NCBI GenBank assembly: GCA_021802105.1
Contig: JAKAAW010000008.1
Span: 1 to 32,986, forward strand
Length of the DNA stretch: 32,986 bases
Source of the DNA: Nanobdellota archaeon
Lineage (GTDB): Archaea; Nanobdellota; Nanobdellia; Parvarchaeales; Parvarchaeaceae
Reading direction: 5' to 3'
Below the pieces are notes generated by a model. It was not told the origin of the DNA. It searched no databases and was given only the letters and a program-made list of their open reading frames with translations. Made by a program: the position numbers and the translations under genes. Positions 2,313-24,830 of the stretch are shown piece after piece (positions within the stretch are counted from its first letter, which is position 1; each line of letters starts with the position of its first letter).

Positions 2313-2368
2313 AAAGAATCAATCAAATTCCGATGACTATAGTTATTGCAGGTCATAATGAGTAGGAA

Positions 2369-2411
2369 GTATTTATATCAAGTCTTCTCTCGTTATTCCA
2401 ATATAAGGAGG
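2369..2411 (+). promoter_or_regulatory. TATA box and Shine-Dalgarno that fix the start of the pentapeptide protein
   Basis: A TATA element, GTATTTATAT, lies at about 2369-2378. A strong Shine-Dalgarno, AAGGAGG, lies at 2405-2411, six bases before the ATG at 2418. The frame is open from an earlier ATG (2346), but that would place the promoter inside the coding region, so 2418 is the likely start. Confidence 0.6.
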
Positions 2412-2417
2412 TTGACT

Positions 2418-3326
2418 ATGAGTCTTTTGGCTAAAAACAAGGTGGAACTGGATTATATGGAATCAAAAATGAAGGTAGACGGTAAGGAATCAGATACAAA
2501 GATGTATATTGTTCTAGGTGAAGGATTGAAGACATACAACGGATTTCAATGGAAGCCGGGACGATGGAATGAAGAACCGAATGATGTTGGGGCGTATGTG
2601 TGGAAGAACAGACCAAATTATGCCTTCATACCATATATGCCCAACCATACATATCTGGTAGAAGAAGTAGAACAATTACTTGGAGAAGACGCTGAGAAAG
2701 CACAATATAAGAGAGTTAAGATATCAGAACAGCCTTTGAGTTTGGATGATTTGCTCGGAGAAGACAAAAAAGGTTTTTTTCAAGCATATCTCCACAAAGC
2801 GAACTTTTCCGAAATAAATCTTGGCTTAATAGATTTTTCTAAAGCATACCTTCGCGAAGCAAACTTCTATAAGGCGAACCTTTCCCAGGCATACTTTTCC
2901 GAAGCATACCTTTCCCAGGCATGCCTCCGTGGAGCAAATCTTTACAAAGCATTTCTCTCTCTGGCAGATCTTTCCAGAGCAGACCTTTCCATAGCAGATC
3001 TACACAAAGCATATCTTTACGAAACAAATCTTTCTAAAGCAGACCTCCACGTAGCAGACCTCCATAACGCGAACCTTTCCCAGGCAAACCTTTTCAAAGC
3101 AAATCTTTCCAAAGCGAACCTTTCTGAAGCGGATCTTTTTCGAGCGAACCTTTCTGAAGCAAATCTCTACAAAGCTGATCTTTTCGAAGCAAATCTCTAC
3201 AAAGCAGACCTTTCCAGAGCAGACCTTTCTGAGGCAAATCTCTACAAAGCATACTTTTTGGGTGCTCATGGAGTCAAGAATAATCCAAATTTATCTATAA
3301 AACAACGAAGTGAAGCTCATTGCTGA
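2418..3326 (+). CDS. pentapeptide-repeat protein with an N-terminal globular domain
   Basis: About 302 residues. Residues 1-115 form a separate domain (YIVLGEGLKTYNGFQWKPGR, then a Tyr/Pro-rich patch) that I cannot name. Residues about 120-282 are roughly 32 tandem pentapeptides of the A(D/N)LSX type (SRADL, SEANL, YKADL), which fold as a right-handed quadrilateral beta helix. The tail is a short non-repeat segment. There is no signal peptide or membrane helix, so it should be cytosolic. Known pentapeptide proteins include DNA mimics that bind gyrase (Qnr, MfpA), but most have no known role, and none is assigned here. The start at 2418 is chosen from a Shine-Dalgarno at 2405-2411. Minus-strand open frames over the repeats are artefacts of the periodicity. 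Confidence 0.9.
   Translation: MSLLAKNKVELDYMESKMKVDGKESDTKMYIVLGEGLKTYNGFQWKPGRWNEEPNDVGAYVWKNRPNYAFIPYMPNHTYLVEEVEQLLGEDAEKAQYKRVKISEQPLSLDDLLGEDKKGFFQAYLHKANFSEINLGLIDFSKAYLREANFYKANLSQAYFSEAYLSQACLRGANLYKAFLSLADLSRADLSIADLHKAYLYETNLSKADLHVADLHNANLSQANLFKANLSKANLSEADLFRANLSEANLYKADLFEANLYKADLSRADLSEANLYKAYFLGAHGVKNNPNLSIKQRSEAHC
2779..3261 (+). repeat. degenerate 15-nt tandem repeat encoding pentapeptides
   Basis: About 32 copies of a 15-nt unit (consensus roughly GCAAACCTTTCCAAA). Some units are nearly identical: GAAGCAAATCTCTACAAAGC occurs at 3156-3175 and again 30 nt later at 3186-3205, with a close copy at 3233-3250. This suggests recent duplication of two-unit blocks towards the 3' end. 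Confidence 0.85.
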
Positions 3327-8444: not shown

Positions 8445-9884
8445 TTAATAAGCGCGTTTCACAGCGCGCTTGCCTAGAACTTCTTCAGCAAAGAATGCTA
8501 ATACAAAAATCACAAGGAACGCAGCGGCACCGGCATAGAAGGAATAGTTGAAGGCTTTCGCCAAAGGAAGCGCGGTGGGTATTCCATGTATTATATAAGT
8601 CGCCGTGAAAGTGGATATTAATGAACCAGCTATCGGTGCACCCATACCGCTTCCCATATTCCTAAAGACGGTATTTAGAGATGTGGCGAGCCCCATTTCG
8701 TGCGGGTCTACGGATAAGACCAGTAGGTTTTGTATTGCTACTTGTAGAATCGCTATGCCAACGGCGGCCAATATGAGATATTCTGCCAACCCTAAAGCAG
8801 TGGTGGCAGTGGGCATAAGCAGGAATCCCAATGCCCCTACTAGCGCGCCGAGCATTAGAAAACGCTTTATACCAAATCTGGACAAAAGTATACCTAGTGG
8901 ATAAGCAAGAACAAGTATCGTCACAGCCATAGGGAGAAGGTAAAGTCCGGTGGTAAGTATATCATATCCGAATCCCCCTGGTGCGGGTAACTCCATCTTG
9001 TATGATATAGCTTGGAACACAAGAAACATCGAAACCCCAGTTGCTAATATCATTATATTTGAGATTAGTACGTTCCTGTGCTTAAGCAGCTTTATATTTA
9101 GTATCGGCTGCGTGCGGTGTTTTTCCACAAAAGCCAGAGGTATTATGGCGAGCATACCACCTACTATTAGCCCTACAATAGCCAACGACGTCCATCCCCA
9201 TGTCTCACCTTCGGATAAGCCAAGCACTATCGCGGCCAGTGATATGCCCAACCAAGCTGCACCAAGATAATCAAGTTTGACGTTCGGGTCCCTATATCGC
9301 GATTCGCGTCCTATTAAGTATATCAATATCGTGAGCCCTATTATGAACGGAAAACCTATGTGATAATTTGCTTGCCATCCGAAATAGTTGGCGATATATG
9401 CTCCCCCTACTAGACCAATCGATAGGCCTGCGCCGAACATGCCTGCTATAAGGCCTTGAGCTCTGGGGACAAGCTCTCGAGGAAATTCTTCCCTGACAAG
9501 GCTGAACGCAAGAGGGAATATACTAAGGCCAATTCCCTGGAACATTCTTGATATTAGGAGAATATGATAAGAAGAAGCGAAAGACGTAACCCCTACCATA
9601 GAGACGTAGGCTATCAGCACATAGATCAGTATCCTCTTCTTACCGAACATGTCCCCTAGTTTTCCTATTATAGGGATTATGGCAGTACCAAAAACAAGGT
9701 AAAGTGATATTATAAGGCTAGCTTGCGCGCTGTTTATGTGGTATTGACTGCTTATTGATGGCAGAGACGGTGCCAGCATTATGTCTATATACATTACAAA
9801 AGCAGCTAGAACGGCAAAAAGCACAAGCATCTTGTATGAATAAGACTTATCATAACCTTTCCATGTATGACTTTGATATTTCAT
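8445..9884 (-). CDS. major facilitator superfamily transporter (DHA2-like, about 14 helices)
   Basis: 479 residues, mostly hydrophobic. MFS motif A is present after helix 2: GKLGDMFGKKR (74-84). Helix 1 carries YIDIMLAPSLPSIS, similar to motif D1 of DHA drug:H+ antiporters, and SRMFQGIG matches motif B. A second-half loop SRFGIKRF matches a degenerate motif A. The length and helix count (about 14) fit the DHA2 branch, which exports drugs, dyes or metabolites in exchange for protons. The substrate cannot be read from the sequence. A TATA element (9902-9911) lies within an inverted repeat upstream. The stop overlaps no neighbour. Confidence 0.9.
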   Translation of the reverse strand: MKYQSHTWKGYDKSYSYKMLVLFAVLAAFVMYIDIMLAPSLPSISSQYHINSAQASLIISLYLVFGTAIIPIIGKLGDMFGKKRILIYVLIAYVSMVGVTSFASSYHILLISRMFQGIGLSIFPLAFSLVREEFPRELVPRAQGLIAGMFGAGLSIGLVGGAYIANYFGWQANYHIGFPFIIGLTILIYLIGRESRYRDPNVKLDYLGAAWLGISLAAIVLGLSEGETWGWTSLAIVGLIVGGMLAIIPLAFVEKHRTQPILNIKLLKHRNVLISNIMILATGVSMFLVFQAISYKMELPAPGGFGYDILTTGLYLLPMAVTILVLAYPLGILLSRFGIKRFLMLGALVGALGFLLMPTATTALGLAEYLILAAVGIAILQVAIQNLLVLSVDPHEMGLATSLNTVFRNMGSGMGAPIAGSLISTFTATYIIHGIPTALPLAKAFNYSFYAGAAAFLVIFVLAFFAEEVLGKRAVKRAY

Positions 9885-9968: not shown

Positions 9969-10230
9969 TCATAAAGTTTTTATAAAGTGCAAGCGTGAGA
10001 ACCCACGATTTTAATAGTTGTATGAAAGTGAACTCAGAAATGGAAAACATAAATAGCAAAAAAGTTAAAATAACGATATGCTGACGGTATACAGGTTCAA
10101 ACTGTATCCAAACGAGGAACAGGAAGAAACATTTTCCAAGTACTTCAGCTACAATAGAGTAGCGTGGAACAAAGCTCTAGAGTTGAGAGAAATCCATTAC
10201 CGTTCAACAACTATACTATTTGTAGGTTAC
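9969..10230 (+). mobile_element. IS200/IS605-type element, left end plus tnpB head only
   Basis: This left end matches the one at 7151: both read T(T/C)ATAAAGTTT, then a hairpin with loop AGAA..CC(CA), then TTTA(A)TAG.TTG. Here the stem is CGTG/CACG (9994-9997/10004-10007). About 75 nt on starts a tnpB open frame. The element lacks the rest of tnpB and the right end; the following epimerase gene begins where tnpB breaks off. Confidence 0.65.
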
Positions 10231-10245
10231 ATATGGCGAGCATGA
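10078..10245 (+). pseudogene. tnpB: 5' fragment of tnpB (IS200/IS605 RNA-guided nuclease family)
   Basis: The ATG at 10078 opens 55 codons ending in TGA at 10243-10245. The start, VYRFKLYPNEEQEETFSKYF followed by YNRVAWNKALELRE, matches the N-terminal domain of TnpB (LYP..EQ.......RFVYNWAL). The RuvC-like catalytic parts (D, E, D) are absent because only about 45 residues of a protein of about 400 remain. The stop overlaps the ATG (10242) of the downstream epimerase, so the fragment was probably joined to that gene by deletion or recombination. Confidence 0.8.
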
Positions 10246-11312
10246 GAATACTGGACTTAGTGTACAGACCGGTAAGAATATACCTTAAAGAGCCCTTTGT
10301 AATAGCCAACGAGAACTATTCATACTGCGATGTTATGGTAATTAAAATAAAGACCGATGGGTTTGAAGGTGTAGGCGAAGCGGCACCGGATGAGGTAGTG
10401 ACCGGGGAAAACATAAAGACGGTCTTCAGAGCGTTAGGAAAGTTAAAAAAAACACTTGTCAAAAGCCACGTTGATGATATAGGAGAGACCATGTACAAAC
10501 TGGGCGAAATCCTTCCTCTAAACAGAACTGCAAAAGCAGGCGTTGATATAGCACTTTACGACGCAATGGGAAAACACACTGGTAAGAGCGTCAGCAGGCT
10601 TCTCGGCGGCAGAAAGCTCAGGATGGAGACGTCTGTAACGATAGGTATAACCAGATTGGAAGACTCAGTTATGGAGGCGGTGCGCTATAAGAGAGACGGT
10701 TTCAAGGTGTTGAAAGTGAAGGTAGGACTGGATGCCTGTGAAGATGAGAGAAGACTCAGGCTGATAAGAGAAGCCGTTGGGGAACGAATAAGAATTATTG
10801 TCGACGCTAACCAAGGCTACAGCGTGAAAGAAGCGATTTCGTTTACTAAGAGAACCAGAGATATAGGGATAAATTTTGTCGAGCAGCCTGTGAGAGCAGA
10901 CGATCTGAAAGGCCTGAAGGCTGTCAGAGACGCAAGCGACATACCCATTATGGCTGACGAATCGCTTAATAGTCCCGAAGACCTTGCTAGGATAATAAAG
11001 ATAAAAGCAGCTGACATGATAAACATAAAATTAATGAAAGTAGGAGGAATATCAGCAGCATTGGAGATGGCAAGGACTGCAAAGGAGAACGGGATAATGG
11101 TAATGACCGGTTGTATGGACGAGACAAAGGTCGGAATAACTGCAGGGATGCATTTTTCCACCGCAAGTAGCGGAGTCGACCTAGTTGATTTGGACTCCTA
11201 CTTAAGCCATAGGAACGAGATAGCCGTTGGCGGTGTGGCAACAATTAAAGGCGTCAATAGAATCTACAATGAACCAGGGCTGGGTTTGATGCTGAAAGAA
11301 GGAGTTCTTTGA
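10233..11312 (+). CDS. dipeptide epimerase (L-Ala-D/L-Glu epimerase type), enolase superfamily
   Basis: 359 residues from the ATG at 10233; an ATG at 10242 is equally good. An N-terminal capping domain begins RILDLVYRPVRIYLKEPF. The barrel carries the catalytic lysine pair K161-V-K163, the metal ligands D191 (DANQGY), E217 (EQP) and D242 (ADES), and the second acid/base lysine K266 (INIKLMK). The motif GCMDET and the D319-L-D321 pair at the last barrel strand are signatures of dipeptide epimerases, where DxD binds the substrate amino group. The expected reaction is L-Ala-D-Glu to L-Ala-L-Glu, a step in murein-peptide salvage; other dipeptides are possible. An in-frame extension to 10164 reads tnpB sequence and is not native. 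An LD-carboxypeptidase lies 3 kb downstream. Confidence 0.88.
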   Translation: MASMRILDLVYRPVRIYLKEPFVIANENYSYCDVMVIKIKTDGFEGVGEAAPDEVVTGENIKTVFRALGKLKKTLVKSHVDDIGETMYKLGEILPLNRTAKAGVDIALYDAMGKHTGKSVSRLLGGRKLRMETSVTIGITRLEDSVMEAVRYKRDGFKVLKVKVGLDACEDERRLRLIREAVGERIRIIVDANQGYSVKEAISFTKRTRDIGINFVEQPVRADDLKGLKAVRDASDIPIMADESLNSPEDLARIIKIKAADMINIKLMKVGGISAALEMARTAKENGIMVMTGCMDETKVGITAGMHFSTASSGVDLVDLDSYLSHRNEIAVGGVATIKGVNRIYNEPGLGLMLKEGVL

Positions 11313-11378
11313 CACGTTTTATGAATTTTTAAAGCTTATAAACGAGCTGGCTCCTATATTATACTATATAATGATTGC

Positions 11379-11421
11379 TGTGAGCCTAGTAAGCTCGCAT
11401 TAATTGATAAAGTAGTATCAA
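11379..11421 (+). promoter_or_regulatory. two tandem hairpins upstream of dnaG
   Basis: TGTGAGC/GCTCGCA (11379-11385/11393-11399, loop CTAGTAA) and TTGATA/TATCAA (11404-11409/11416-11421, loop AAGTAG). AT-rich TATA-like sequence (TATATTATACTATATAATG, about 11354-11372) precedes them. They could be the 3' end of the upstream transcript, a leader, or a small RNA; the sequence does not decide. Confidence 0.35.
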
Positions 11422-11487
11422 AATATCACCATTTCAGTCATTGATAGGGCACAATAGCTCTTTTTTGGTAGATATTCTGGTAGAATT

Positions 11488-11493
11488 GGAGGT
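11488..11493 (+). promoter_or_regulatory. Shine-Dalgarno of dnaG
   Basis: GGAGGT lies seven bases before the ATG at 11501 and selects it over an in-frame ATG at 11441 whose 20 extra residues do not resemble DnaG. Confidence 0.65.
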
Positions 11494-11500
11494 TAAAAAT

Positions 11501-12691
11501 ATGGCAAAAATAGGACCAGCTTCGTTTAAGTATGTCCTCAGGGCAAAGTTCACAGTTGAAAGTCTCGTGGACAAGCCGGACGTTATAGGGGCAGTATTTG
11601 GTCAGACAGAAGGACTTTTAGGTGAGGAATTAGACCTTAGAGAAGCACAAAAGAACGGAAAAATCGGCAGGATAAACGTTGAGAGCACATCATCCGGCGG
11701 TAAAACAACAGGGGAGATCATAATTCCGACGTCTCTGGATATAGCAGAGACAGCTCTTGTGGGCGCAGCTATAGAGACGATCGACAGGATAGGCCCGTCA
11801 AAGGCCAAAGTGACGGTAAGTGGTATAGAGGACGTAAGGGTCTCAAAAAGGGAGTACATAATGAACAAGGCACTTCAGCTTCTCAATGAGGCGCTTAAAG
11901 CAAGCGCTGTAGACACAACCGAACTGCTGCAGAAACTCTATGATGAGGTTAGGCAGAAAGAACTTATAGAGTACGGGTCGGAGAAGCTGCCGGCCGGGCC
12001 GGAGATAAACGACTCTGATGAGATAATCGTAGTGGAGGGGCGTGCGGACGTAATGAACATGCTTAAGCACGGTTTCCCGAACGTGATAGGAATGAACGGC
12101 ACTAACATACCTAAATCTGTAATAGACCTTAGCAGAAAGAAGACTGTAACTCTGTTCGTTGACGGTGACAGAGGAGGGGATATGATAGTAAACGCATTCC
12201 TCCAGCTGGGTCACGCGGATTTTATAGCAAAAGCGCCTAGTGGCACGGAGGTAGAGGAACTTTCGAAGAAGGAGATTAATCAGTCCCTTAGGGCGAAAGT
12301 ACCTGTCGAAGATTACGAGCCGGGCGCGAGAAGAGGCGAGCCCTCGCATGAGAGGAGCCCTGCCCCTGTAAGCAGACAGGCTGTGAACGTTCCACAGGAT
12401 ATAAAAGACAAGTCCCTTGGTCTTGTAAATGAAATAATAGGAACAAGAGGCGCTTTTCTCGTCAATGATAAATTTGAAATAGTCGGCAAGATACCCTACA
12501 AAGAGGTAGAGGCCGCTATTCTCAACATAGAGAACATCTTCATGATAGTTCTTGATGGAGTCATAACCGACGAGATTGCCAAAGCGGCGGAACAGAATGA
12601 CATAAAATATGTCATCGGAAGCAGGGTGAGCGGTAACAGTGCCACCGTGCAGCTCGCATCTTACGAAGATATAGGCTATAGGTACAAGTAA
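11501..12691 (+). CDS. dnaG: archaeal DnaG-type primase
   Basis: 396 residues. The N-terminal archaeal DnaG domain starts AKIGPASFKYVLRAKF. The central TOPRIM domain has the glutamate motif IIVVEGRADV (E179) and the metal-binding FVDGDRGGD (D221, D223). The usual archaeal NVIGMNGTNIP segment lies between. The C-terminal region (about 310-396) ends ASYEDIGYRYK and follows a Pro/Arg-rich linker. Archaeal DnaG has primase activity in vitro and associates with the exosome in several archaea, so a role in RNA turnover is as likely as one in replication. The DHH phosphoesterase starts 8 nt downstream, indicating one transcript. Confidence 0.95.
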   Translation: MAKIGPASFKYVLRAKFTVESLVDKPDVIGAVFGQTEGLLGEELDLREAQKNGKIGRINVESTSSGGKTTGEIIIPTSLDIAETALVGAAIETIDRIGPSKAKVTVSGIEDVRVSKREYIMNKALQLLNEALKASAVDTTELLQKLYDEVRQKELIEYGSEKLPAGPEINDSDEIIVVEGRADVMNMLKHGFPNVIGMNGTNIPKSVIDLSRKKTVTLFVDGDRGGDMIVNAFLQLGHADFIAKAPSGTEVEELSKKEINQSLRAKVPVEDYEPGARRGEPSHERSPAPVSRQAVNVPQDIKDKSLGLVNEIIGTRGAFLVNDKFEIVGKIPYKEVEAAILNIENIFMIVLDGVITDEIAKAAEQNDIKYVIGSRVSGNSATVQLASYEDIGYRYK

Positions 12692-12699
12692 GAATAAAG

Positions 12700-13734
12700 A
12701 TGGCAACTTTCATATACACGCACAAGGCAGACTGTGACGGAGTCTGTTCAGCGGCCATACTTGAAAGGTATGTCGATCTGGAAAACGTAGATAGCCGTGT
12801 GGACTTCATAGATTATGGCGCACTAGCGCAGAAAGCTTTCTCAAGAATAGAAGGGCTTGCACATGGCTCAGAAGTGATAATAGCCGATTTTGGCTGTGAC
12901 ATATCGCTACTACCGGCTGCTGAGCGGGCCATCTCTTCTTTAAACAAGAGAGGAGGGAAGCTCGTGTGGCTCGATCATCATAAATGGGATGAAGAGTCAG
13001 TAAGACGTTTATCCCCTCTTGCAAAGGTAAGGTTGTCTAAATCCGATGAACTGTGTGGTGCAGAGTTGTCATATCTAGAATATATGGGCGATGACGAGCT
13101 TTCAAGGCGGCTCGCAGCGATAGGGAGAGATTCCGACATTGACATGTGGAAAACGAATCCTCCTTCCCCATCGTACGCGCTGACTAAGCCGCTCGCAGAT
13201 TTGATAACGTATTACAACTATCTGGCCAATGACGATGATGACAAGAGAAGGGGGCTTCTCCTCTCACTAGTACGCAAACTTTCAGATGCGCCTCTCGACA
13301 GGATAGTCGGCAAAGATTTCGACAATCCATTTTGGGACAATGAGATGCAAAAAGACTTTAGTGAATACAAGAAGCTCGAGACATCAAAACTTGAGGAATG
13401 CCTGGGCAGTGCGGAAACATTTAAGGCAGGAGATTACACTTTCGTCATAGGGATTTCCGATAGAGTCCTTTCTACAACAACTGTGGGAAACGCCCTTCTT
13501 AACAGATACAATGCTGATGCGTCGTTTGTCGTAAGGGAGACTGGTCTTATTTCGATAAGAAGAAGCACTGGCAGATACAGTATAAAGTGCGATGAGCTCG
13601 CAAAATTATTTTCTGGTGGAGGACACGAATACGCAGCAGGTGGAAAGTTAGGATACGAACTGAAGGACCTGGAAGCCGTAAAGCTGGCCAAAAGCGAGAT
13701 AATCAAAAATGTTTCCACCCATTACAACGCGTGA
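12700..13734 (+). CDS. DHH/DHHA1 family phosphoesterase (RecJ/NrnA/GAN-like)
   Basis: 344 residues. Motif I is HKADCDGVCSA (H8, D11, D13). Motif II is ADFGCD (D63). Motif III is the name-giving LDHHKWDE (D92-H93-H94). The DHHA1 substrate-binding motif GGGHEYAAGG is at 306-315. Family members use two metal ions to cleave phosphodiesters: RecJ-type 5'-3' DNA exonucleases, archaeal GAN nucleases bound to GINS, and NrnA/pAp-phosphatase or nanoRNase types. The short length and absence of an OB domain fit the archaeal GAN or nanoRNase side. Linkage to dnaG suggests nucleic-acid turnover; the substrate is not certain. Confidence 0.9.
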   Translation: MATFIYTHKADCDGVCSAAILERYVDLENVDSRVDFIDYGALAQKAFSRIEGLAHGSEVIIADFGCDISLLPAAERAISSLNKRGGKLVWLDHHKWDEESVRRLSPLAKVRLSKSDELCGAELSYLEYMGDDELSRRLAAIGRDSDIDMWKTNPPSPSYALTKPLADLITYYNYLANDDDDKRRGLLLSLVRKLSDAPLDRIVGKDFDNPFWDNEMQKDFSEYKKLETSKLEECLGSAETFKAGDYTFVIGISDRVLSTTTVGNALLNRYNADASFVVRETGLISIRRSTGRYSIKCDELAKLFSGGGHEYAAGGKLGYELKDLEAVKLAKSEIIKNVSTHYNA

Positions 13735-13814
13735 TTAGACCAGCCTGCAAAACAGAAAGAAATATAAAATACTACATTCATAACTGATTGATTAACGGAA
13801 AATTTCCTAGCAAT

Positions 13815-14432
13815 ATGGAAGAATTTATAGTTGTTGAACAGAGTAAGACACCGGACGGTAAGGCATTTATAAACGCCGCAGTGAACTTCGTAAGACCTAC
13901 TTATATAAAGGTGAATACAGACATACAGCTCAAATTTGATGACAGGATACAGGTAGACGAAGAGAAAAATGTGATAAAAGACGGACAAAAAATAGGGGCG
14001 TTGATGCAGACAAAGACTGACGCGGATATCATAATAAGCACGGAGTATGACATAAAGTATACAGGAGGTTACAGCGTAGACGGTAAGAAGATCTACATCG
14101 ATAGAGATTTCCCGAAGCAGCTATCCATAGGTGACAAGACGATAGACTGCCTCGCTTCCATAGGATTGCACCATGAACTTGTGGAGAAGTGGCTGATAGA
14201 TGATACTTACACGTATCCGTATGCTCATAAGATAGCTACTATGGTCGAGAGAGCCTATGTCGAGAGCCAGGGCGTAACATGGGATGAATATTCAAAGGAG
14301 GTCAACAAGAACCTGTCTATAGTATCCTCAAAGAAAGCAGAGAGAAGCCCGGTGGACCTTGATATGTCCCCTTACGTTTACGACAGAGACATAGGGGTGA
14401 TCAGCGAGATACGGAAAAGCCAGTTGGAATGA
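13815..14432 (+). CDS. unknown 205-aa protein with an HHExxE putative metal site
   Basis: Family not recognised. The first 110 residues look beta-rich (FIVVEQ, KVNTDIQLKFDDRIQV). A helix-like segment IGLHHELVEKWLID (H119, H120, E121, E124) and a second, AHKIATMVERAYVE (H138, E145), resemble the HExxE...H...E pattern of predicted metal-dependent proteases found in phage and archaeal proteins. I infer a metal site, not an activity. The start is set at the ATG 13815; an in-frame TTG at 13788 sits about 25 nt from the TATA box AATATAAAATAC (13761-13772) and is an alternative leaderless start. The gene is convergent with the LD-carboxypeptidase gene, with one base between the stops. Confidence 0.75.
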   Translation: MEEFIVVEQSKTPDGKAFINAAVNFVRPTYIKVNTDIQLKFDDRIQVDEEKNVIKDGQKIGALMQTKTDADIIISTEYDIKYTGGYSVDGKKIYIDRDFPKQLSIGDKTIDCLASIGLHHELVEKWLIDDTYTYPYAHKIATMVERAYVESQGVTWDEYSKEVNKNLSIVSSKKAERSPVDLDMSPYVYDRDIGVISEIRKSQLE

Positions 14433-14433
14433 T

Positions 14434-15366
14434 TTAGTCAACTACCTTTTCAAGGAGCTCAACATATGGTTCTTCTGATGAGAGCCTCATTCTTGCGTTA
14501 AGAGGGATAAGCATCTGCTCGCTACTGTGTCCAAAAGGAAGACCGAATATTGACGGTTTGTTCAGCTCATTCATATAATCCTCTATCACTTCTTCTATGG
14601 CCGGCATCGGCTCGTCTGTAAGTGGGATATCAGTGAAATCACCGAATGCGAAACCGTTGAATTTCTTAAGCATCTTTGACAGTTTTAACCCGAATAGATA
14701 CCTGTCTATGTCAGCCGCGGTAGTTCCCGTGTCCTCCATAAAAAGAATTTTTCCATCCGGTTCCGGCATGTATTCCGTCCCTATAAGGGAAGCAACTGGT
14801 GACATGCACGTTCCCATGCTGATACCTTCCGTTTTACCCGGCACGGCGTATTTTATGACGCTGTTTATAGTGCTGCTTATATCGAGCGAATCACCGCTCA
14901 GGACGCTTAGGAACTGCCTGAAGGAGTTCTTCTTCATCTCGTCGACATCTACGCTTGGCATAGGTCCGTGGAATGTTATCAGCCCTGTGAGCTTGTTTAT
15001 GGCAAGATGCAGTGCCGTTATATCGCTGTAACCAACAAATATCTTTGGATGGGTTTTTATCAAGTCATAATCAAGGTACTGCAGTACCCTTATGGAACCA
15101 TACCCTCCTCTCGCAGAGAATATTGCATCAACTGAATCGTCCTTGAAGGCGTCCATAAGCTCCTCTGCCCTGTCCTTATCAGGTGCCGCAAGATCCCCTT
15201 TCTGGGCGAGTCTTCTGATGTTCTTTCCCAGAGTCACGTTATACCCGAGGGTCTTAAGTATTGATATGCCTTTAGATAGCCCTTTTATATCAGCGGCGCT
15301 GGCAGGAGTGACTATCCTTATATTATCTCCCTGTTTAAGTCTCTGAGGTCTTATTACTGTTCTCAT
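14434..15366 (-). CDS. ldcA: LD-carboxypeptidase, peptidase family S66
   Basis: 310 residues, the family's normal length. Seen are RGGYGS (86-91), the nucleophile in GYSDITALH (S114), the glutamate in LFMEDTG (E211) and the histidine in LPFGHSSEQ (H280), giving the complete S66 Ser-Glu-His triad. LdcA-type enzymes remove the terminal D-Ala from murein tetrapeptides in the cytoplasm; a few S66 members act on other L,D bonds or on microcin C7. No signal peptide is present. An archaeon has no murein of its own, so the substrate would be bacterial peptides. A dipeptide epimerase lies nearby. TATA-like TTAAAATAG lies before the start. Confidence 0.92.
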   Translation of the reverse strand: MRTVIRPQRLKQGDNIRIVTPASAADIKGLSKGISILKTLGYNVTLGKNIRRLAQKGDLAAPDKDRAEELMDAFKDDSVDAIFSARGGYGSIRVLQYLDYDLIKTHPKIFVGYSDITALHLAINKLTGLITFHGPMPSVDVDEMKKNSFRQFLSVLSGDSLDISSTINSVIKYAVPGKTEGISMGTCMSPVASLIGTEYMPEPDGKILFMEDTGTTAADIDRYLFGLKLSKMLKKFNGFAFGDFTDIPLTDEPMPAIEEVIEDYMNELNKPSIFGLPFGHSSEQMLIPLNARMRLSSEEPYVELLEKVVD

Positions 15367-23902: not shown

Positions 23903-24424
23903 ATGATATTTATGGAATTAAAAGCGTACATCGATGAAGATGTTGGTATTAAAATGAGAGAACAGGCGGCAAAACGTTTTGGTTATTTTAAGGGGTCTAT
24001 AAGCAAAGCAGTAGAAGAGGCACTCATTCAATGGCTAAGCAAAAACGAGCAACTAGAAAAAAGATTAAAAAGCCTACTGGAAAAAGCAACTGAAGATCCT
24101 AACGTTATCGCAGTTTTGTTGTTTGGAAGTTTTGCTACAGGTAAAACGAATTATAGAGACGTGGACCTATCCTTCCTATTGGCCCCGGGGAAAAATGAAC
24201 TTTCTACATTATCACGGTATGAAGATTTCAGAGAAGATCCAAAATTCGATATTTCATGTTTGAATTCTCTCGCAATAAACGTCAGAAAGGAAGTATTGGG
24301 TAGCGGCAAAGTACTTTTATGCAAGGACAAGTCAAAGCTCTATGACCTTATGATTAAGACGTTAAAAGAATATGAAGATTTTAGACATGTTTATGAGTTG
24401 ATGCTTTATGAAAGAAACAAGTAG
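23903..24424 (+). CDS. mntA: MntA-type nucleotidyltransferase antitoxin with N-terminal RHH-like DNA-binding domain
   Basis: 173 residues; an ATG at 23912 (MELKAY) is an alternative start. Residues about 4-45 (MELKAYIDEDVGIKMREQAA, then GYFKGSISKAVEEALIQWL) read as a ribbon-helix-helix: one strand, helix, G-S turn, helix. Residues 65-173 are a minimal nucleotidyltransferase with LLFGSFATGKTNYRDVDLS (G75-S76, D86-x-D88), the GS-x9-DxD active site. MntA proteins inactivate HepT toxin by adding AMP to its tyrosine. The stop overlaps the hepT start by 17 nt. The DNA-binding fusion and a palindrome just upstream suggest it also represses its own operon. Confidence 0.85.
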   Translation: MIFMELKAYIDEDVGIKMREQAAKRFGYFKGSISKAVEEALIQWLSKNEQLEKRLKSLLEKATEDPNVIAVLLFGSFATGKTNYRDVDLSFLLAPGKNELSTLSRYEDFREDPKFDISCLNSLAINVRKEVLGSGKVLLCKDKSKLYDLMIKTLKEYEDFRHVYELMLYERNK

Positions 24425-24830
24425 GATTGAAGAGAAATTGGCAGATATAAAGGAATATCTAAATGAACTCAATGGTAGGCTGCCGAGTACGTTCGAAGGC
24501 TACAAGCGCGCCGACTTGATGTTAAAAAGAACAGTCGAGAGGAACTTGCAGCTAATCAACGATAGCGAAATAGATGTTCTGGCTATTCTTGTAAAGTTAA
24601 AAGAACTCTCGATAGCGGTAAGCGAGGAGGCGCTTATAGACAGATTCAATAAGCTATTAAGCAAGAGAGTCGTGGCTCACTTGAAAGAGTTCAGAAGGCT
24701 CAGGAATATGCTGACGCACACGTATAAAAATGAAAATTATGACGAATTAGTTTTTGATTCCACGAAGAAATTGGATGAAGTGCGTGATTTTATAAGAGAC
24801 GTCAATAATCTGATAAAGGACCGCCATTAA
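24408..24830 (+). CDS. hepT: HepT-type HEPN RNase toxin
   Basis: 140 residues, all-helical. The signature R-x4-H-x-Y is exact: R99-NMLT-H104-T-Y106 within FRRLRNMLTHTYKN. R and H form the HEPN RNase site, and the tyrosine is the residue AMPylated by MntA in characterised pairs. Residues 28-60 carry the family's usual YKRADLMLKRTVERNLQLI helix. It overlaps mntA by 17 nt, so both are made from one message with the antitoxin first. An alternative role as a partner of a defence system is possible, but no other defence gene is adjacent. Confidence 0.88.
   Translation: MKETSRIEEKLADIKEYLNELNGRLPSTFEGYKRADLMLKRTVERNLQLINDSEIDVLAILVKLKELSIAVSEEALIDRFNKLLSKRVVAHLKEFRRLRNMLTHTYKNENYDELVFDSTKKLDEVRDFIRDVNNLIKDRH

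Follow-up and report, generated by a model that had tools for sequence, protein, structure and literature searches.

Dipeptide epimerase and LdcA-type S66 genes in a DPANN archaeon: a possible salvage set for D-residue peptides partly common to Thermoplasmatota

In Bacillus, LD-carboxypeptidase, dipeptide epimerase and C40 peptidase genes form a module beside a peptide ABC transporter; we take this module to be the one named ykfABC, only the gene products having been observed. Archaea have no murein, and DPANN symbionts presumably feed on compounds of their hosts, the enzymes that handle these compounds being mostly unknown. Epimerase-family members are nevertheless already known in archaea without peptidoglycan, as described in an excerpt of PMC3605383. 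The window analysed here, contig JAKAAW010000008.1 of a Nanobdellota archaeon (assembly GCA_021802105.1), is the whole 32,986-base contig C7 (G, C and L numbers are our handles for genomes, contigs and loci) of a 669-kb, 25-contig genome that is 89.5% complete, and its source is a DPANN archaeon, probably a Parvarchaeum-like one from acid mines to judge by the small genome and the genes it has in common with Thermoplasmatota. It includes genes for a dipeptide epimerase and an S66 LD-carboxypeptidase-family enzyme of the LdcA type, and the genome also carries an M20 dipeptidase-like enzyme; all three are presumably cytosolic. The chances appear evenly balanced that these enzymes form a set that salvages small D-residue peptides, probably cationic ones, and is partly common to the presumed Thermoplasmatota host lineage. 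This reading is drawn from an S66 clade shared with Thermoplasmatota, the adjacency of M20 and S66 genes there, a nested co-occurrence of the three genes, acids at epimerase positions 27, 53 and 296, and the finding of murein markers in none of 28 genomes of the genus.

The epimerase gene (10233..11312, + strand; 359 amino acids (aa)) was identified from Pfam, NCBIfam and PDB matches and a fold model, and an alternative upstream start is possible at a GTG at 10164. Pfam matches are to MR_MLE_C (6.8e-51) and MR_MLE_N (2.1e-13), and the top solved relative is the L-Ala-D/L-Glu epimerase of B. subtilis (6.7e-64). The top-scoring NCBIfam model, A_G_epim_Thtga, which we take from its name to come from Thermotoga, gives 240 bits and is under its cut-off of 500. 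The predicted fold (predicted local distance difference test score 95.6) is best matched by 3jva (Z 55.0), followed by 3q45 (54.3), 2p88 (53.5), 1jpm (51.8) and 3rit (50.8); these are dipeptide epimerases apart from 2p88, a closely related racemase. All acid/base and metal residues are present, comprising the KxK pair K161 and K163 (10713..10721, + strand), D191, E217, D242 and K266 (11028..11030, + strand). The DxD motif, which presumably binds the dipeptide amino group, consists of D319 and D321 (11187..11195, + strand) and occurs in 79 of 79 other loci, while 2p88 has E and T at these positions. K163 and K266 align with K162 and K268 of B. subtilis YkfB, the acid/base lysines given in an excerpt of PMC5808125. 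Sequence comparison thus confirms a dipeptide epimerase of the enolase superfamily, MLE subgroup, and the DxD signature claimed for it in the original prediction is in place.

Specificity positions were compared in eight sequences of the genus, the 79 other loci and seven solved enzymes; a ninth genus sequence, from G002, is partial and was left out. In ungapped alignment, Glu27 (codon 10311..10313, + strand) takes the place of YkfB Arg24, a residue that we assume to bind the Glu side chain. Glu is found at this position in 8/8 genus sequences, and Arg in 61 of the 79 other loci and in 1jpm. Arg is also present in 3rit and 3r0k, and is therefore not unique to Ala-Glu enzymes. Two further positions carry acids. 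Asp53 (aligned codon 10389..10391, + strand) is conserved in all eight genus sequences and found in one of the 79 other loci. Asp296 (codon 11118..11120, + strand), within GCMDE, corresponds to Ile in YkfB and Asp in 3rit; this position is Asp or Glu in every genus sequence and acidic in 1/79 of the other loci. The full acid set is matched by a single other locus, L067 from an acidobacterium, and E27 with D53 also occurs in 7 of 27 Thermoplasmatota rows, with Asn at 296. Among the solved enzymes, an acid at 53 is limited to 3rit and 2p88 (Asp in 2p88), and one at 296 to 3rit alone. According to the structure titles, 3rit was solved with L-Arg-D-Lys and 2p88 is an N-succinyl Arg/Lys racemase. 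We infer that the acids at 53 and 296 set specificity, and the pocket probably favours cationic dipeptides over L-Ala-D/L-Glu.

The eight genus sequences group together as a clade (100/99) in the epimerase tree (73 rows, 3rit lying outside it), where the neighbouring row is the Thermoplasmata record L033 (91/93, not starred) and the backbone is largely open. An Arg24-type group was named after the tree had been seen, and includes 16 of the 18 Arg rows, G130 and 3r0k being left out. Alone, these 16 form a weak group (73/40), and forcing the genus epimerases to join them is rejected (p value of the approximately unbiased test (p-AU) 0.000564). A common origin with the Thermoplasmatota/acidobacterial E27-D53 group is neither supported nor rejected (p-AU 0.18), and no epimerase relative was found in the viral contigs searched. 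The substrate first proposed, L-Ala-D/L-Glu, is not supported, given the replacement of Arg24 by Glu27, the acids at 53 and 296, and the rejected Arg24-type grouping (p-AU 0.0006), and from the sequence it looks likely that the enzyme acts on other dipeptides only.

The S66 gene (14434..15366, − strand; 310 aa), assigned by Pfam, alignment and tree, was the only S66 gene found in the genome. Both Pfam halves of the family are matched (2.3e-41 and 1.4e-29), NCBIfam PRK11253 gives 131.9 bits versus a cut-off of 378, and no signal peptide was seen on inspection by eye. Ser114 (15025..15027, − strand) is the predicted nucleophile of a GYSD elbow that aligns with GHSD of E. coli LdcA and GYSD of MccF, and the aligned Glu211 (14734..14736, − strand) and His280 (14527..14529, − strand) complete the triad. 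The three residues are invariant in 15 S66 sequences, 14 from the genus and one from a sister genus. S91 was discarded as a candidate nucleophile, as bacterial S66 rows vary at 91 and nearly all keep the GYSD-elbow serine. The segment between the two domains is 44 residues long, against 36-47 in LdcA-like rows and 63-73 in the rows with MccF, though the short-segment bacterial rows L120 and L193 fall among long-segment rows in the tree. Segment length and tree position together rule out a microcin-type (MccF) enzyme and confirm the LdcA type, for which LD-carboxypeptidase activity is predicted. The complete triad and the family assignment made originally are therefore upheld.

A recent bacterial origin of the S66 enzyme is not supported by its tree (62 rows). 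A single clade (100/100) unites ten sequences from the archaeal family of the window (nine of them from the genus) with 18 short-type Thermoplasmatota sequences; the family rows lie among the Thermoplasmatota in it, with no bacterial S66 of the tree set close by. The window protein is 51-62% identical to those 18, and bacterial S66 proteins are 22-38% identical among the matches listed (60 of 160 records in one listing). S66 matches were found in 38/243 Thermoplasmatota genomes, with this type represented by the 18 full-length sequences and one fragment (G291), and G204 has a second copy. Keeping the 10 family rows together is not rejected (p-AU 0.068), although the free tree splits them, but keeping the 18 Thermoplasmatota rows together is (p-AU 0.009). 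A reading as two separate acquisitions is therefore not upheld, and transfer may have run in either direction. In an excerpt of PMC5864196, phylogenies of several Parvarchaeota energy genes point to Thermoplasmatales. More divergent S66 relatives are encoded at G023:C7:298065-299036 (38% identity, with an internal TAA) and G031:C3:3275-4198 (35%).

The S66 and M20 enzymes are archaeal forms that are mostly encoded side by side in Thermoplasmatota. In 10 of the 12 loci fetched (from the 18), S66 is immediately preceded, on its own strand, by an M20 gene (381-392 codons) that overlaps it or ends within a few bases of it, as judged from longest open reading frame (ORF) starts; G259 and G224 have no M20 gene before S66. 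The G157 protein is a TIGR01891 amidohydrolase, above cut-off, with HmrA (8.8e-46) and Xaa-Arg dipeptidase (1.4e-36) as nearest solved relatives. The window's genome carries its M20 gene on another contig (C1:8739-9839; 46% identity). Genus and Thermoplasmatota proteins form one group relative to four bacterial rows (100/100), and the M20 motifs, read here as the metal site, are kept. No report of an S66-M20 pair in Thermoplasmatales, or of these enzymes in Parvarchaeota, was found among the open-licence papers listed. In G204, the pair lies amid six genes that are related to one another and 307-323 codons long (L204 3453-6836 and 12134-15252).

The distribution of the three genes was compared in 28 genomes of the genus, which are 59-100% complete. 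S66 is present in 16 (including a divergent form with a stop in G023 and a fragment in G005), the epimerase in nine (one partial) and M20 in seven. S66 is found in 9/9 epimerase genomes (one-sided p 0.0017) and 7/7 M20 genomes (p 0.0097), the epimerase in 6/7 M20 genomes (one-sided p 0.0014), and six genomes have all three. In a separate search, four archaeal genomes with a related epimerase (those of loci L033, L050, L060 and L094) gave no S66 match, and S66 was present in 10 of the 18 genomes covered.

In the proposed mechanism, S66 would remove the C-terminal residue adjoining a D centre in short peptides. The epimerase would invert the C-terminal alpha carbon of dipeptides by a two-lysine, Mg-assisted mechanism, preferring cationic side chains such as Lys or Arg, and the M20 enzyme, as a relative of HmrA and Xaa-Arg dipeptidase, could then split the L,L-dipeptide to free amino acids. 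The peptides might come from a Thermoplasmatota host, from lysed neighbours or from the cell's own aged proteins, with murein a possible minor source, though not the defined one. A more specific form of this proposal is tentative: a murein-independent archaeal route in which S66, M20 and a triple-acid epimerase would turn peptides from the host, or racemised ones, into free Lys and Arg, the first two enzymes being common to the DPANN symbiont and the Thermoplasmatota host lineage. If correct, three testable enzymes are named, two of them also in the host lineage, and 'murein' annotations in archaea can mislead.

Several observations weigh against such a salvage set. The enzyme 3rit keeps Arg at position 27, leaving E27 outside the known cationic signature, and few characterised enzymes stand behind the specificity reading. 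The epimerases of G157, G204, G215, G294 and G332, which are the five of the 18 short-type-S66 Thermoplasmatota genomes with an aligned epimerase, have neither E27 nor D53. M20 is apart from the epimerase and S66 genes in the genus loci seen, and HmrA, its better PDB match, does not carry the name of a cationic-dipeptide enzyme. The co-occurrence p values ignore shared descent and genome incompleteness; G025 has M20 but no epimerase, and a weak, partial M20 match in G020 (1.5e-9) was scored as absent. Peptide uptake is also unexplained, because no importer (SBP_bac_5, OPT) was found in the 28 genomes.

A general route for recycling peptides that are racemised or contain D residues, broad and mainly non-cationic in specificity, is unlikely but has points in common with the data. 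The Thermotoga maritima enzyme, which according to an excerpt of PMC5808125 acts on L-Ala-D/L-Phe, -Tyr and -His, offers the model: A_G_epim_Thtga is the top NCBIfam model, albeit below cut-off, and the DLDS(Y/H)L motif of the window epimerase resembles that of TM0006. However, positions 27, 53 and 296, all acidic in the window enzyme, are Ser, Ser and Gly in that of T. maritima.

Salvage of murein peptides from bacteria, as originally predicted, would have S66 trim D-Ala from tetrapeptides and the epimerase handle L-Ala-D-Glu, and now appears improbable. Both enzyme families are real, the S66 enzyme is of the LdcA type with a complete triad, and Bacillus velezensis groups the LD-carboxypeptidase, dipeptide epimerase and C40 peptidase genes beside those of a peptide ABC transporter. 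The murein part of the prediction is countered by the absence of Arg24, the acids at 53 and 296, the rejected grouping with Arg24-type rows, and the distance of S66 from all bacterial S66 in the tree set. A search for a murein amidase and a peptide importer had also been proposed; NLPC_P60 (PF00877), Amidase_2 (PF01510), SBP_bac_5 (PF00496) and OPT (PF03169) were found in 0/28 genus genomes, which are incomplete, Amidase_3, M23 and other routes not being searched. Controls were positive for all four (9/14, 6/14, 11/14 and 2/14, respectively). Contact with murein is not impossible, because an excerpt of PMC12352652 reports peptidoglycan hydrolase homologues as prominent in Nanoarchaeota and Thermoplasmatota, and murein peptides are a possible, minor source of S66 substrates. 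Scavenging as a general idea agrees with the cationic salvage set favoured here.

That the three enzymes act separately and were merely co-inherited by the same sub-lineages of the genus, S66 perhaps acting on a toxic peptide conjugate, is very improbable: in the fetched genus loci the genes do not adjoin one another and p values that ignore shared descent may be too small, but M20 adjoins S66 in 10/12 Thermoplasmatota loci, the distribution of the three genes is nested, and S66 does not belong to the MccF type.

The epimerase and S66 ORFs were found where predicted, about 3 kb apart (3.1 kb), a gap so small that, by a rough estimate, random placement of two genes would yield it in about 1% of cases. 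They do not form an operon, because they are on opposite strands and are separated by genes (11441..14432, + strand) for a Toprim protein that we take to be DnaG primase, a DHH phosphoesterase (both by Pfam) and a 214-aa protein with no assigned family. Eight other genus genomes have both genes. The arrangement in G021 is similar to that of the window but without the DHH gene, and in G009 the two genes are ∼13 kb apart. In G002, G003, G005, G010, G011 and G018 they are on separate contigs, which in fragmented assemblies says nothing on distance. That the contig is archaeal rather than a contaminant follows from its archaeal genes (for DnaG, MCM, eIF5A, ribosomal proteins and RNA polymerase) and from its long synteny with G021.

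A major facilitator superfamily (MFS) transporter gene (8445..9884, − strand; Pfam MFS_1, 2.6e-40) is divergent from the epimerase gene. Its top NCBIfam model is DHA2 efflux, under the model cut-off, and it is at most a candidate member of the pathway. A transporter reading of the kept epimerase neighbours in other genus genomes was dropped, as Pfam matches in L224 are to genes for nicotinamide adenine dinucleotide (NAD) salvage and an M13 (neprilysin-type) peptidase. The M13 gene (L224 10731-12716) is 2-4 genes downstream of the epimerase and at matching places in L222, L223, L227 and L228, giving five genus genomes in all. The NAD-salvage genes are on the other side of the epimerase in four of these five, those with a contig extending that way; the Pfam names come from L224 only. 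In G021, an OrfB_IS605/TnpB-like gene (L229 3018-3905) adjoins the epimerase and is a possible vehicle of gene movement. Elsewhere in the window are a pentapeptide-repeat protein gene (2346-3326, + strand) and a Polbeta nucleotidyltransferase gene overlapping a HepT-like gene (23903-24830, + strand), which we take to be an MntA/HepT-type toxin-antitoxin pair.

Compared with the known systems, the window S66 has the triad and short segment of E. coli LdcA but shares 27% identity with it (a plasmid-borne copy) and belongs to an archaeon without murein. The epimerase, 35% identical to 3rit of Methylococcus capsulatus over 350 columns (Z 50.8 for the model), resembles it in the DxD motif and the two acids (53 and 296) but has Glu rather than Arg at 27. 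Like the Bacillus module, the window's genome has an LdcA-type S66 and a dipeptide epimerase, both from the families found there. However, the archaeal genes are not an operon, NLPC_P60 and SBP_bac_5 are found in 0/28 genomes, the epimerase lacks Arg24 and the co-occurring peptidase is M20. The Thermoplasmatota S66+M20 pair is also similar, with S66 proteins 51-62% identical and in one clade, and M20 proteins 46% identical and in one group relative to bacterial rows. It differs in that the genus S66 and M20 genes are apart in the loci seen and in that the genus set adds an acid-pocket epimerase.

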